A DNA stretch of 64,000 nucleotides, from contig NZ_JADWOX010000016.1 of the NCBI RefSeq assembly GCF_016135805.1, positions 1-64,000 on the forward strand, in the 5' to 3' direction. This stretch comes from Caulobacter hibisci. GTDB taxonomy: Bacteria > Pseudomonadota > Alphaproteobacteria > Caulobacterales > Caulobacteraceae. Position 1 is the first letter of the stretch; every line of letters begins with the position of its first letter. The translations under genes and the position numbers were made by a program. The notes under the pieces are model-generated. The model did not search any database, was not told the DNA's origin, and was given only the letters and a program-made list of their open reading frames with translations. Below, in pieces: positions 45,431-49,303 of this stretch.

Positions 45431-46390
45431 TCAAGCCGCCGCCGCCATCAGCTGCTCGGCCACCGCCTCGGTGATCGGCTGGCCCGTGCGTTCCTCGATG
45501 AACAGCCACTGGCCGGCCGGATTGACCTCGAGGAACACGTACTCGCCCTCCGGGGTCAGGCGCATGTCGATGGCCCCGTAGACCAGGCCCAGCCGCGCCA
45601 TCAGCGCCCGCAGGTCGGCGATCACCGCGTCCGGCAGGACGTGGGGACGCATGTCGGCGTCGTACATCGTCATGCGGAAATCCACCCGGTAGTTGGTGGC
45701 GCCCGAATGGATCTCGGCGGCGAAGATCTTGGGTCCCACCACGGTGATCCGCAGGTCGATGTCGGCGCGGATGTGCTCCTGGAAGATCAGCGGCGCATGG
45801 CGCACGGCGTCGAGCTGGTCCTGCTCCTCAGGGCGCAGCAGCCGGGTCTCGCGCCAGGCCCGGTCGGTGGCCGAGAAGGCCTTGTAGATCACCCCCCGGT
45901 CGCCCTCGGCCGCGATGAACTCCCGCGCCCGGTCCGGATCGTTGGTGATCAGGGTGCGGGGCGCGCGCAGGCCCATGGCGGCGGCCAGCTTCAGCTGCCA
46001 GGTCTTGCGGGCGGCGGCCTCGTCGCGGATCGGGTCGTTCATCCAGGTGGCGTCCAGGCACGACCACAGGCCGTTGATCGCCGCCTGGCATTCGCCAAAG
46101 GCGAAGTTGCGGTCGTCGGGATCGGTCATGGCCTCGTCCAGGCCATAGGGCAGCGGCCGCCGCCACCAGGCCGAACGCACCGCCGACAGGTCGCGCTCGA
46201 CCCCGTCGATCACCGCGCTCAGGGACGAGCCGCTTCCGTTGTGGTGGGCGATACCCAGGCGGATCTCGCCCGGGAACCGCGCCGTGTCGAACAGGATCGG
46301 CTCGGCCCCGGCCTTGCCCAGGCGGTCGAGGACCGCCTGGGTGTGCTGGTCGCCGGCATGCGAAACGATCAGGATCGCGCCGGCCGTCAT
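45431..46390 (-). CDS. ATP-grasp ligase (MvdD-like, graspetide-type)
   Basis: The 319-residue ATP-grasp enzyme resembles the ribosomal-peptide macrocyclases MvdC/MvdD that make ester or amide side-chain crosslinks. It has a pre-grasp N-domain (VSHAGDQHTQAVLDRL, AWWRRPLPYGL). The ATP-grasp domain follows with TLITNDPDRAREFIAA, VIYKAFSAT (ATP-binding Lys), IFQEHIRADIDLRITVVG, and the metal-binding end YVFLEVNPAGQWLFIEERTG. The family and role are from motif style. Its ATG overlaps the stop codon of the protease gene (ATGA), so both are made together. The protease C-terminal repeat is the probable substrate. Confidence 0.88.
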   Translation of the reverse strand: MTAGAILIVSHAGDQHTQAVLDRLGKAGAEPILFDTARFPGEIRLGIAHHNGSGSSLSAVIDGVERDLSAVRSAWWRRPLPYGLDEAMTDPDDRNFAFGECQAAINGLWSCLDATWMNDPIRDEAAARKTWQLKLAAAMGLRAPRTLITNDPDRAREFIAAEGDRGVIYKAFSATDRAWRETRLLRPEEQDQLDAVRHAPLIFQEHIRADIDLRITVVGPKIFAAEIHSGATNYRVDFRMTMYDADMRPHVLPDAVIADLRALMARLGLVYGAIDMRLTPEGEYVFLEVNPAGQWLFIEERTGQPITEAVAEQLMAAAA

Positions 46391-47823
46391 CCGCCCTGCC
46401 CGACCAGCGCCTGGTAGTGCGCCAACAGCTGCCGGTACTGGTTGTCCAGCTGCTGCAGCTCGGCTTCCGCCGCGGCGATGTGCTCAGCCAGCTGGCCGAG
46501 GGCCGCCTCGACCTGGGCGGCCTCGTCCTGGCCGGTCGGCGTGGCGCTGGCCGTGCCGTTCCAGGCTTCCGAGTGGTGCGGGGTCGACAGGATGAACGGC
46601 CGGGCCTGGGCGCCCTCGGGCAGGGCGCGGTTCAGCACGGCCGGATTGATGACCACGCGGCCGGGATCGAAGCGGCCCGGATCGTCGAAGCCGGCCGACT
46701 TGTTCTCGCCGCCCGGGATCTTGTCGAGGCCCGGCTGCTTGACGTCGTCCAGCACCTTGCGCTTGGGGATGCCGTCGTCGCGGAACTTCAGGGTGGAGAT
46801 CGGGTCGTCGACCACCTTCAGCTTGAGGTCGTCGCGCACCTTCAAGGTCGCGATCGGATCGTCGAGCACCTTCAGCTTGACGATCGGCCGGGTGATCCGT
46901 TGCAGGGTCGGCGAGACGGCGATGACCGCCGCGATCCGCTGGCCGAAATTGCTGCCGCCGCCGGCCGGGCTGGCGGCGTTGCAGCCGCCGTTGGTGTGCA
47001 CCCCGACGATCCGCCCGTCGCTGGCCCGCCAGATGCCCGAGCCGGAATTGCCGCCCAGGGTGTCGATGTCGTTGTAGCGGATCAGGTTGCCGTCGATGGC
47101 CGTGGTCGGGCCCGCCTCGATGCGCTTGCGCTGGCCGGCCGGGTGGCCGATCACGCAGATCATGTCGGGCGAGGCCGCGTCGGTGGTCGAGACCAGGGCC
47201 CGGCCGAAGATCGCGCCGGGATTGCCGCCGATCCGGCAGATGGCCATGTCCAGGCCGCCCAGGCGGTATTCCAGCAGCTCCAGGATCGGGAAGCTCTGCT
47301 CGGCGCGCGGATTGCCGGCCGGATCCACCTGGAAGTTGAAGTTCAGGTGCATGTTGCGGGCGATGTCTTGCGGCGAGATGATGTTGGTCGTGCCGTTGAC
47401 GCGCGGCCGCTCCCAGCCGCCGCCGGTCTGGTCGAACAGGTGGCCGCAGGTCAGCAGGATGTCGTCGGCGATCATCGTGCCCGAGCCCCAGCGCACGCCG
47501 TTCACGGTGCCGGGATTGGTGTAGATCGAGGCCAGGTTGGCGTTCCACTGCACCTGGCAGGCATGGGCCTGGTGGGCGCCGACGAAGGCGGTCGTGACCC
47601 CCAGGGCCCCGTTGTATTGCTCGACCGGCTGGCTGTCGTCGGTCGTGCCGCAAATCGATTCCAGCAGTTCGGAATAGGTGTCTCCGCCAAGCGCCTCGGC
47701 GCCGGACAGGCGCTCGGGCAGGCTGTCGGGGTGAGGAACGAACAGCGGATCGGTGGCCCGGTCCGTGGCGGAGCGCACGGCGGACTCGCCCAGCGCCTCC
47801 GAGGGGGTTTTCTTGTCGGCCAT
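46387..47823 (-). CDS. Trypsin-like protease with C-terminal Lys/Asp-Asp repeat (candidate graspetide precursor)
   Basis: The 478-residue protein has no signal peptide. Residues 60-310 form a trypsin-like domain: His128 (LLTCGHLFD), Asp192 (LGGLDMAICRI) and Ser260 (LGGNSGSGIW) make a full triad. Residues 316-360 hold a tandem repeat with an 18-residue period and five K-[V/F]-x-D-D units at 318, 328, 336, 346 and 356. Then follow FDDPGRFDPGR, a conserved-looking RPFILSTPHHSEAWN (408-422), and a coiled-coil tail (435-472). The Lys/Asp repeats suit side-chain crosslinking by the coupled ATP-grasp ligase. That role is inferred. Confidence 0.85.
   Translation of the reverse strand: MADKKTPSEALGESAVRSATDRATDPLFVPHPDSLPERLSGAEALGGDTYSELLESICGTTDDSQPVEQYNGALGVTTAFVGAHQAHACQVQWNANLASIYTNPGTVNGVRWGSGTMIADDILLTCGHLFDQTGGGWERPRVNGTTNIISPQDIARNMHLNFNFQVDPAGNPRAEQSFPILELLEYRLGGLDMAICRIGGNPGAIFGRALVSTTDAASPDMICVIGHPAGQRKRIEAGPTTAIDGNLIRYNDIDTLGGNSGSGIWRASDGRIVGVHTNGGCNAASPAGGGSNFGQRIAAVIAVSPTLQRITRPIVKLKVLDDPIATLKVRDDLKLKVVDDPISTLKFRDDGIPKRKVLDDVKQPGLDKIPGGENKSAGFDDPGRFDPGRVVINPAVLNRALPEGAQARPFILSTPHHSEAWNGTASATPTGQDEAAQVEAALGQLAEHIAAAEAELQQLDNQYRQLLAHYQALVGQGG
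46744..46878 (-). repeat. 54-bp tandem repeats coding the K-x-x-D-D core
   Basis: Two 54-bp repeats (46771-46878) code KLKVLDDPIATLKVRDDL and KLKVVDDPISTLKFRDDG. A partial third copy (PKRKVLDD) runs to 46744. The DNA is only moderately conserved between copies while the K and DD positions are kept, as expected for selection on the peptide. Confidence 0.85.
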
Positions 47824-47936
47824 CGCAGCCTCCCAGTTTTTTGATGCCGTTTTTGATGCGTTTGGTGCGGGCCGGCGCTCCCCCCGAGACCGGCCTTTTT
47901 CAAATTTCTCGTTATGAGTGCAAGAGTCAATGATGC

Positions 47937-47964
47937 TTGCATAAATAGCATAGCAGCGTTATGC
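47937..47964. promoter_or_regulatory. GCATA/TATGC repeats between the divergent protease genes
   Basis: In the AT-rich 169-bp gap, GCATA occurs at 47939 and 47948 and its inverse TATGC at 47960. The last two form a 5-bp inverted repeat over 7 bp. TTGCAT (47937-47942) with TTATGC 16 bp later is a weak plus-strand promoter match. The repeats could be an operator that controls both protease genes. No regulator gene is next to it. Confidence 0.4.
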
Positions 47965-47992
47965 GAAACTTCGACAACAGCCGGGGCCGAGC

Positions 47993-49303
47993 ATGACGGA
48001 CGAGGTCGAAGCCGCCGCGCGGGCCCGGATCGCCAAGGCCGCGTCCGGCATCCGGCGCGCCCTGCGACTGGCCGAGGCGGGCAATCCCTACGCCGCCGAG
48101 CCCGAGACCGAGCGGCTGCGCGACCGCCTGCAGCGCAAGGCGGCCCTGACCCCGAAGGAAGCCGTCGCCGTCGCCGCCAACATCCAGGGCGCGGCCCAGG
48201 GGGCGCCCTCCCCCCGAACAGGCGAGGCGATGCTGGCGCTGGACGGCAAGCCGTCGGAACCGCCCGCCCCTCCGCCGCTGGGGGCCGAGGCCGTCTGGGG
48301 CGACAGCCTGGATTTCGTCAATGTCTCGTTCCTGGCCAAGGGGGCCAAGGCGGCGCGGGCCGTGGGCCGGGTGGCGTTCCGCAACGGCCGGCCGCGCGGC
48401 AGCGGCTTCCTGATCGGCGGCGGGCTGTTCATCACCAACAACCACGTCATCGACAATCCCGAGATCGCCCAGCAGCTGGTGCTGGAGCTGGACTACGAGG
48501 TCGACCTGCGCGGCCAGCCGCGGCCGGTCAGCCGCTACGCCTTCGACACGGCGGTGTTCATCACCGACCCGGTCAGCGGCCTGGACTTCACGGTGATCGG
48601 GGTGGGCGCGGCGATCGACGCCAATGCCGCGGCCCTGGACGGCTACGGCTTCTGCGGTCTGTCGGACGCCAAGGACAAGCACATGCTGGGCGAGTACGCC
48701 AACATCGTCCAGCACCCGGAAGGCCGCCACAAGGAGGTGGTGCTGCGCGAGAACCGGCTGGTCTCGCGCTATGACGACGCCCTGCACTACGTGGCCGACA
48801 CCCAGCCGGGCTCGTCCGGCGCGCCGGTGTTCAACAGCGAATGGGACGTCATCGCCCTGCACCACTGGGGCGGGCCGTGGATCCAGAAGACCGACGCGGC
48901 CGGCGCGCCGCTGGCCAATATCCAGATCAACGAGGGGGTGCGGATCAGCGCCATCGTCCGCACGATCCGGCAGCGGCTGGCGGCGCTGGAGCCCCTTGCC
49001 CGCGACCGCCTGAGCGGGGCGCTGGACCTGGGGGCGGCGGAGTATTTCGCCGACGACGCCCCGCCCTCTCCCGTCACGCCCCCGCCGGTCGCGACCGGCG
49101 CGGCGCGGGTCGATCCCGACGGCCGGGTGACCTGGACCATCCCGCTGGAGCTGTCGGTGCACATCCCGCTGCTGGCCCAGGGCGCGGCCCTGGGTCCGGC
49201 CGCCTCCCCGGCGGTCGCCGCCGGGACGCCGGCCGAAGCCATCGTCCAGGCAGACGCGCCCGAGGCTCCCACGGCGTCCAAGCCCAAGAAGCCGAAGGGC
49301 TGA
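47993..49303 (+). CDS. Trypsin-like serine protease with N-terminal helical domain
   Basis: The 436-residue protein has no signal peptide. It has a helical N-domain (1-70; MTDEVEAAARARIAKAASGI), a Pro-rich linker (about 86-97), and a trypsin-like domain introduced by LDFVNVSFLAKGAKAARAVG. The triad is His151 (FITNNHVID), Asp198 (GLDFTVIGV) and Ser275 (TQPGSSGAPVF). The C-terminus has the WTIPLELSVHIPL strand and a Pro/Lys-rich tail. Cytosolic proteases of this type, led by small adaptor-like domains, occur in signalling or conflict modules. It is divergent from the protease/ATP-grasp pair and probably part of the same system. Confidence 0.85.
   Translation: MTDEVEAAARARIAKAASGIRRALRLAEAGNPYAAEPETERLRDRLQRKAALTPKEAVAVAANIQGAAQGAPSPRTGEAMLALDGKPSEPPAPPPLGAEAVWGDSLDFVNVSFLAKGAKAARAVGRVAFRNGRPRGSGFLIGGGLFITNNHVIDNPEIAQQLVLELDYEVDLRGQPRPVSRYAFDTAVFITDPVSGLDFTVIGVGAAIDANAAALDGYGFCGLSDAKDKHMLGEYANIVQHPEGRHKEVVLRENRLVSRYDDALHYVADTQPGSSGAPVFNSEWDVIALHHWGGPWIQKTDAAGAPLANIQINEGVRISAIVRTIRQRLAALEPLARDRLSGALDLGAAEYFADDAPPSPVTPPPVATGAARVDPDGRVTWTIPLELSVHIPLLAQGAALGPAASPAVAAGTPAEAIVQADAPEAPTASKPKKPKG

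Follow-up and report, generated by a model that had tools for sequence, protein, structure and literature searches.

A graspetide-synthetase-type ATP-grasp ligase and its predicted substrate, a repeat tail carried by unrelated enzymes

The window analyzed here, a stretch of 64,000 nucleotides from Caulobacter hibisci (contig NZ_JADWOX010000016.1), encodes a trypsin-like protease (P0001) with a C-terminal tail of repeated units and, in the adjoining gene, a graspetide-synthetase-type ATP-grasp ligase (P0002). On sequence grounds, the tail is very probably the substrate of the ligase. The overall explanation that we favor, and regard as rather likely, is that the ligase would staple the tail of a whole enzyme and that the tail would then stay in place. 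Since the same tail is found on trypsin-like, M43, S8, and astacin proteases and on tyrosinases, the module is independent of the enzyme that bears it. Coordinates are collected in Table 1.

Table 1. Features of the window locus, with positions counted from the first nucleotide of the window
Feature	Positions	Strand	Basis or remark
Tail-bearing trypsin-like protease P0001, 478 aa	46387..47823	-	Trypsin_2 1.4e-10; catalytic domain at about residues 68-308
Graspetide-synthetase-type ATP-grasp ligase P0002, 319 aa, predicted tail cross-linker	45431..46390	-	Matches to Pfam/NCBIfam models and, by sequence and fold, to PDB entries
Five core units [T/K]-x-K-[V/F]-x-D-D, residues 316-360	46744..46878	-	Translation, shuffles, covariation
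Single unit KQPGLD (K-x4-D), residues 362-367	46723..46740	-	Per-tail unit list
PFILSTPHHSEAW, residues 409-421, predicted recognition element (follower)	46561..46599	-	Coincidence with ligase, alignment
C-terminal helix, residues 432-475, predicted follower part	46399..46530	-	AlphaFold2; many tails end in similar segments
ATGA stop/start overlap of the P0001 and P0002 genes	46387..46390	-	Read from the DNA
Second trypsin-like protease P0003, divergent, without tail	47993..49303	+	Trypsin_2 1.9e-19

An earlier note on this DNA had described P0002 as MvdD-like, which holds: PF21068, the MvdD pre-ATP-grasp domain, is matched with a score above its cut-off (4.4e-14). The NCBIfam models TIGR04187 (3.5e-75), MvdC (2.7e-60), and MvdD (1.4e-56) are matched as well, all below their curated cut-offs. 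The structures nearest to the AlphaFold2 model of P0002, which has a mean predicted local distance difference test score (pLDDT) of 91.4, are AMdnB (1.0e-31) and MdnC with its precursor (5.1e-31), followed by CdnC, PruB, and PsnB, while the best RimK match reached 4.6e-16 and is thus far weaker than those to the graspetide synthetases. Among 28 ligase rows, residues D237 and R239 of the DFR motif are conserved at a level of at least 90%, likewise E288 and N290; the DFR motif is described as critical by Carter et al. (PMC13097080). The ligase is present as a single copy in its own genome.

Translation of P0001 bears out the intact triad H128/D192/S260 that had been claimed, and the three residues are invariant in five aligned rows. 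The nearest PDB sequences are glutamyl endopeptidases (8.9e-7), and by sequence similarity the protein and its triad fit the glutamyl endopeptidase-like trypsin family. The ATGA overlap of its stop codon with the ligase start was verified in the DNA. The tail units read, in order, KLKVLDD, TLKVRDD, KLKVVDD, TLKFRDD, and KRKVLDD, followed by KQPGLD. The five K-[V/F]-x-D-D units proposed in the earlier note are therefore present (K318, K328, K336, K346, and K356), but not with a period of 18 residues; their spacing is 10, 8, 10, and 10, and 18 residues correspond to a double unit. Each unit has a second potential donor two residues ahead (K316, T326, K334, T344, and K354). None of 100,000 shuffles of residues 309 to 408 reached five occurrences of K..DD (maximum, 4). 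In the AlphaFold2 model of P0001, made from five rows (mean pLDDT, 32.2), the helix at residues 432 to 475 was the sole confident part, with block pLDDT of up to 76. A crude hydrophobicity test detected no hydrophobic stretch typical of a signal peptide at the N terminus of P0001.

In 61 genomes (its own, 36 of the same genus, and 24 of the same order), P0001 fully matched only itself, and a single further match was weak and partial. When plasmids were searched with the ligase, 82 records were returned, the best of which came from Burkholderia stagnalis and contained a ligase 49% identical to P0002. The gene before this ligase again shares four bases with the ligase start, but its product is an M43 metalloprotease (8.3e-16) rather than a trypsin, with T-x4-D repeats and PFVLSTPHHSMAW at the C terminus. 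Because an M43 partner with repeats and motif was thus found, a DNA pattern for PF-x-[L/F]-x-TPHH was scanned over a genome collection of 84,980 species, which yielded 54 loci. The motif is adjoined by an ATP-grasp gene whose product is 45 to 67% identical to P0002 in 26 of the 54, and a 27th ligase (42%) became visible once a locus that had been cut short (L055) was extended. Donor/acceptor units precede the motif in 26 of the 27 ligase loci (L060 has one unit and L061 none). No ATP-grasp gene was found in the DNA around the motif in the remaining 27 loci, five of which cover less than 1,500 bases downstream; in these, the motif lies in frames of 36 to 249 aa (12 loci, ten with frames of at most 90 aa) or in no frame of at least 30 aa (15 loci), and there are no repeats. 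According to their record titles, the 27 positive loci belong to Planctomycetota, Myxococcales, Verrucomicrobia, Chloroflexi, Bacteroidota, Acidobacteria, Actinomycetota, Proteobacteria, one Nitrososphaerales archaeon, or subgroups of these, and many of the records are metagenome assembled.

As a control, six plasmid relatives of the P0001 protease domain that lack the tail (24 to 48% identical) were inspected, and no ATP-grasp gene was found in flanks of about 6 kb in any of them (0/6), whereas all five tailed trypsins have one alongside. Two of the tail-less relatives carry other C-terminal modules, a murein endopeptidase M74 domain (L012) and FG-GAP (L016). Viral contigs gave no relative by search and four matches to the DNA pattern, none in frame with the motif, and a profile scan of genome contigs from a two-row alignment gave no match.

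Together with the window and B. stagnalis proteins, the 27 positive pattern loci make up a set of 29 tail proteins, of which only that of the window and that of L023 were retrieved other than by the motif. Trypsin-like passengers number five (the window, L059, L066, L072, and L084), all with T[CA]GH and GNSGS. Twelve are M43 metalloproteases, nine by Pfam, two (L044 and L094) by an HExxH motif in longer loci, and the truncated L077 by the likeness of its domain end; all 9 M43 proteins inspected for HExxH contain it, as do the longer loci of L044 and L094. There are five S8 passengers (L047, L051, L063, L067, and L092), with GTS in 5 of 5 and HG[TN] in 4 of 5 (L051 is cut), the Asp motif being caught by the pattern in L092 only, and three astacins (L055, L074, and L086), each with HExxHxxGxxHE. 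Two passengers are tyrosinases by Pfam (L052, 3.6e-42; L073, 3.1e-41), L061 has a small domain without a Pfam match, and L060 contains an apparent S8 remnant in broken frames. By the same crude test, a strong N-terminal hydrophobic stretch was found in none of the 29 tail proteins, six of whose N termini are cut (L044, L051, L077, L084, L093, and L094) and others uncertain; the highest mean over 14 residues was 1.66, in a spurious extension of L066, and the next was 1.55.

The candidate view that the system is peculiar to one trypsin-like protease was rejected on account of the M43, S8, astacin, and tyrosinase passengers. L060, on the Nitrososphaerales contig, was considered as a stand-alone small precursor and likewise rejected: immediately upstream, a different frame encodes a C-terminal piece resembling S8, and the locus therefore looks like a frameshifted S8 gene. 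This nominally archaeal contig (L060:2499-4063) combines the tail motif, a ligase, and the S8-like piece in what is a decayed gene or an assembly error.

A Cytophagales genome assembled from a metagenome contains the nearest relative of the window ligase (65%). Hosts from different phyla are intermingled in a tree built from 34 ligase rows, and the passenger types of the 26 labeled rows require 8 changes, compared to a mean of 13.7 after shuffling (0 of 200 shuffles were as low; the minimum possible is 4), with details of the tree being unsure because 16 of its 31 inner branches are open. The tail and ligase thus seem to travel as a unit that occasionally swaps its passenger.

That the repeats form the modified core, as had been supposed in the earlier note, is supported by covariation within the units. 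K..DD occurs 108 times in the 29 tails, compared to a shuffle mean of 4.3 (maximum of 13 in 2,000). Other tails (L023, L072, L077, L079, and L096) have T-x4-D units mostly without Lys, and a single K-x4-D unit such as KQPGLD also follows the repeats elsewhere. Across the tails, except in L061, a donor Lys, Ser, or Thr stands ahead of an acceptor Asp or Glu at a fixed spacing. We defined a strict set of units, with T/S at position i and D at i+5 beyond the Pfam domain, which comprised 139 units from 24 tails. In this set, Lys at i+2 is accompanied by an acid at i+6 in 75 of 75 units, and units without this Lys lack the acid in 63 of 64, the sole exception being TLTFLDD in L052. A looser count of 143 units in 25 tails gave agreement in 75 of 75 and 66 of 68, respectively. 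Both kinds of unit occur together in 13 tails, where the rule holds for 87 of 89 units; permutation gave a mean of 62.2, and none of 20,000 permutations was as high. Units with Phe at i+3 and no Lys have the acid in 1 of 6 cases, those with Lys and no Phe in 13 of 13. This covariation predicts links from T/K(i) to D(i+5) and from K(i+2) to D/E(i+6). In its simplest reading, every unit would contain two donor/acceptor pairs, i/i+5 and i+2/i+6, the second of which would give the Lys-to-Asp ring size determined for corallotide (PMC13097080). We consider this exact pairing probable.

The segment behind the core is the predicted recognition element, a natural "follower." The earlier note had suggested that PFILSTPHH is recognized on the C-terminal side of the core, which finds support in its coincidence with an ATP-grasp gene in 27 of 54 pattern loci and in a ligase relative, L155, whose 53-aa precursor-like frame begins with MKPFIF and thus has PFIF at its N terminus. 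MvdC and MvdD recognize PFFARFL within the leader (PMC13039773), and so the N-terminal PF motif of ordinary precursors seems to be mirrored after the core here. An engineered graspetide with its leader moved to the C terminus is still processed, at a rate slower by two-fold (PMC13003496). The motif is followed by [S/T]-x-A-W in 21 of the 29 tails, and a helix-like C terminus is common among them, though not universal. A small precursor with an N-terminal leader and a C-terminal core was not what we found; the chain is an enzyme of 478 aa (397 to 661 aa in complete homologues), and its motif comes after the repeats.

Taken together, the proposed mechanism would begin with the binding of the ligase to the follower at the protease C terminus, PF[IV]L[SA]TPHH plus the helix. 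With ATP, the ligase would join Thr/Lys(i) to Asp(i+5) and Lys(i+2) to Asp/Glu(i+6) in each repeat, and the tail would become a row of small macrocycles. The enzyme, of a type that is normally secreted but here without an evident signal peptide, would retain the ringed tail as a stalk or handle, stapled and resistant to proteolysis, and the module would have moved between unrelated enzymes together with its ligase. We give the retention of the tail as a stalk or handle an even chance; its function is a guess from the range of passengers.

Several observations weigh against this explanation or limit the evidence for it. Conservation of the motif is in itself circular because the loci were retrieved by the motif pattern; its coincidence with ligase and tail, unlike this conservation, is independent evidence. 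The ligase profile was also run, without the motif, on five samples of evenly drawn genomes, 398 of them from the phylum of the window and the others around known members. The 398 genomes gave 4 other ATP-grasps at 1e-40 or better, 247 gave 3 and 251 gave 9 at 1e-70, 207 gave 1 other at 1e-85 plus two known ones, and 197 gave the seed alone. None of these five samples contained a new PF-x-L-x-TPHH tail locus, which implies that the system is rare and that the set of loci is largely bounded by the pattern. Adding K-anchored units (202 units in 29 tails) loosens the K/acid rule to 98 of 99 with Lys and 98 of 103 without. The units are not independent either, because repeats multiply by duplication; among 97 distinct 7-mers, those without Lys comprise 62 lacking and 1 having the acid, and those with Lys 0 and 34. 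Leu at i+1 (73/89), Phe at i+3 (84/89), and Arg at i+4 (60/89) also track the acid, more weakly, as TLKFRDD multiplies as a block. K..DD is absent from 8 of the 29 tail proteins (L023, L048, L055, L061, L077, L079, L092, and L096), and L061 has the ATP-grasp gene and the motif yet no repeats. The earlier note had held that homologues with the ATP-grasp gene but lacking K/DD repeats would refute its proposal, and these eight proteins are formally of that kind; the condition was too narrow, since seven of the eight keep other T/K-to-D/E units, irregular ones in the case of L092.

Other explanations of the locus have to be weighed against a stapled tail that is retained. The chain could be a precursor in cis, from which the fused protease or P0003 would excise the ringed region and release cyclic peptides as the product. 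Such a route would suit the fact that 25 of the 27 domain-assigned passengers are proteases (5 trypsin-like, 12 M43, 5 S8, and 3 astacin) with largely intact catalytic motifs, and a possible role of nearby proteases in maturation or as resistance genes has been suggested by Carter et al. (PMC13097080). We nevertheless consider it unlikely, given that tyrosinases bear the same tail (L052 and L073) and that much alike repeats serve different protease families; moreover, no conserved cut site was noticed, albeit without a systematic search for one. The ringed tail might instead act as an inhibitor in cis, silencing a cytosolic protease until the tail is removed. Microviridins and plesiocin do inhibit serine proteases (PMC8939145, PMC13097080), and silence in the cytosol would help enzymes for which the crude test gave no evident signal peptide, but one kind of unit serves serine proteases, metalloproteases, and tyrosinase, which a single inhibitory loop would hardly fit, and other small genes described below may fill the role, so that this idea seems quite doubtful. 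Release of the core by the protease, or control of the protease by the core, as suggested in the earlier note, is unsupported as a general logic, because the tail sits on four unrelated protease families and two tyrosinases; release or inhibition may apply to single members. Finally, it is highly improbable that the tail is an ordinary disordered linker and that the ATP-grasp enzyme, which scores below the curated cut-offs of the matched NCBIfam models and has no known product, acts elsewhere or adds amino acids like RimK, considering the pairing of ligase and tail (27/27 versus 0/27, and 0/6 among tail-less relatives), the K/acid covariation, and a ligase fold far nearer to graspetide synthetases than to RimK.

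If the favored explanation is correct, the ligases would be protein-stapling rather than natural-product enzymes, acting on a portable tail with a natural follower, and the "missing precursors" of their branch would be the enzymes encoded by the adjacent genes, a proposition that could go either way. It would answer the open question of the substrates of peptidase-linked graspetide synthetases without a known precursor, and it would provide a natural C-terminal follower, elsewhere reached by engineering (PMC13003496). Side-chain stapling is thereby suggested as a modification of whole enzymes. The follower and the [T/K]-x-K-x-x-D-D unit would also constitute a compact, enzyme-independent tag for stapling protein tails.

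Across the gap from P0001, the divergent second trypsin-like protease that had been reported was verified (P0003). The 169-bp gap itself, described as AT rich, is so only by comparison, with a G+C content of 53% against 71% for the window, and not in absolute terms. A homologue of P0003 adjoins one other tail locus (L084) and also the tail-less loci L012 and L017. P0003-like trypsins thus recur near P0001-like ones with or without an ATP-grasp gene (window 47993-49303; L084:4683-5276; L012:1819-2403). As homologues occur in the tail-less L012 and L017, a core role was rejected for P0003, which is probably a neighbor rather than a component. An antiphage role was rejected too: neither P0001 nor P0002 had a PADLOC match at 0.01, and the matches of P0003 were weak only, the best being RT-Protease_XI (2.6e-6) through its protease domain.

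Small proteins accompany some of the other tail loci. Four M43 tail proteases are directly preceded by related ones (L023:5063-5398, L046:3744-4061, L087:7198-7608, and L096:1429-1815), three of which resemble lipocalins weakly (PF13648 at about 0.01, below cut-off); perhaps these act as inhibitor or chaperone. At two astacin loci, the gene facing the ligase or following it encodes a small YscW-like protein (L074:5107-5466 and L086:1-326; PF09619, 7.3e-7 and 4.4e-5, above cut-off), and at the third (L133:4803-5171), the ligase is followed by a like-sized protein that has no match. The PF09619 scan covered neighbors at astacin loci, while those at the other loci were compared among themselves.

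The further ATP-grasps from the motif-free samples lie in loci of other types, of which L142 and L155 come nearest. Of the loci inspected, some have short precursor-like frames with a PF motif at the N terminus (L031, L033, and L155), and others have nothing evident. In L142 (6474-7601), a 375-aa protein that consists mostly of DPK(Y/F) repeats and ends in PFILTTNWPY precedes an ATP-grasp 43% identical to P0002 (profile match, 6e-101). Its N-terminal part resembles that of the L061 protein (3e-7), and the DPK repeats may represent another core type of the tail system. L143 (G797:C159:58000-74000), in a genome from the sample centered on G726, has three tandem graspetide-type ATP-grasp genes, with products about 38 to 39% identical to P0002.

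Among published systems, ATP-grasp branches 7 and 8 of Makarova et al. (2022, PMC8939145) are those for which no precursor was predictable and peptidases of several unrelated families were noted. A YscW homologue is often present in branch 7, and the peptidases of that branch were proposed to supply peptides from other proteins. The loci described here resemble branch 7 in having peptidases of unrelated families and no separate precursor, and PF09619 is found beside 2 of 3 astacin loci; they differ in that the enzymes themselves hold the repeats and the recognition segment and in that tyrosinases occur as well. We infer that the clade of tail ligases is branch 7 or a part of it, and the substrates of branch 7 are then probably the tails of its "peptidases." L037:2658-6464 and L036:446-3499 fit the description of branch 8, with an enzyme followed by a shorter protein adjoining the ATP-grasp (no Pfam match in either case), which may be the truncated ATP-grasp of that branch; a plasmid search found no relative of the one in L037. 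The enzyme of L037 (741 aa) resembles kelch/galactose-oxidase proteins and has a repeat stretch rich in K and E (IKEKTEIKEKAEVKEK...), that of L036 has a weak S8 match (0.0068, below cut-off), and branch 8 may also modify enzyme-borne tails. Judging by its description, group 32 of Carter et al. (2026, PMC13097080), whose "diverse families of neighboring proteases" are interpreted there as serving maturation or resistance, may coincide with the tail loci. We found no description of enzyme-fused graspetide cores in the open-licence literature searched.

Corallotide (group 15; PMC13097080) has a K-x-x-x-D isopeptide, from i to i+4, established by nuclear magnetic resonance, and resembles the tails in its long substrate, five repeats, Lys-to-Asp spacing of i+4, and DD pair. 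The linked Asp is the first of the pair in its KIVADDP and, by our prediction, the second in KVLDDP here. Corallotide is a stand-alone precursor with an N-terminal helical region, is hydroxylated by a 2-oxoglutarate (2OG) oxygenase, and is reported from Corallococcus only. The tails described here, in contrast, are C-terminal parts of enzymes, each unit has a further donor/acceptor pair, and the follower comes after the core; by record titles and tree labels their loci occur in several phyla and are not confined to Corallococcus. With the microviridin ligases MdnC/MdnB and the plesiocin ligase PsnB, the tail system shares the ligase fold and a PF-type recognition motif, but the precursors of those systems are short, with an N-terminal leader followed by the core, and the order is reversed here. 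A parallel in order is fuscimiditide with an engineered C-terminal leader, in which recognition after the core still directs cross-linking (PMC13003496); in the tail loci this order is natural, and a full enzyme stands ahead of the core.

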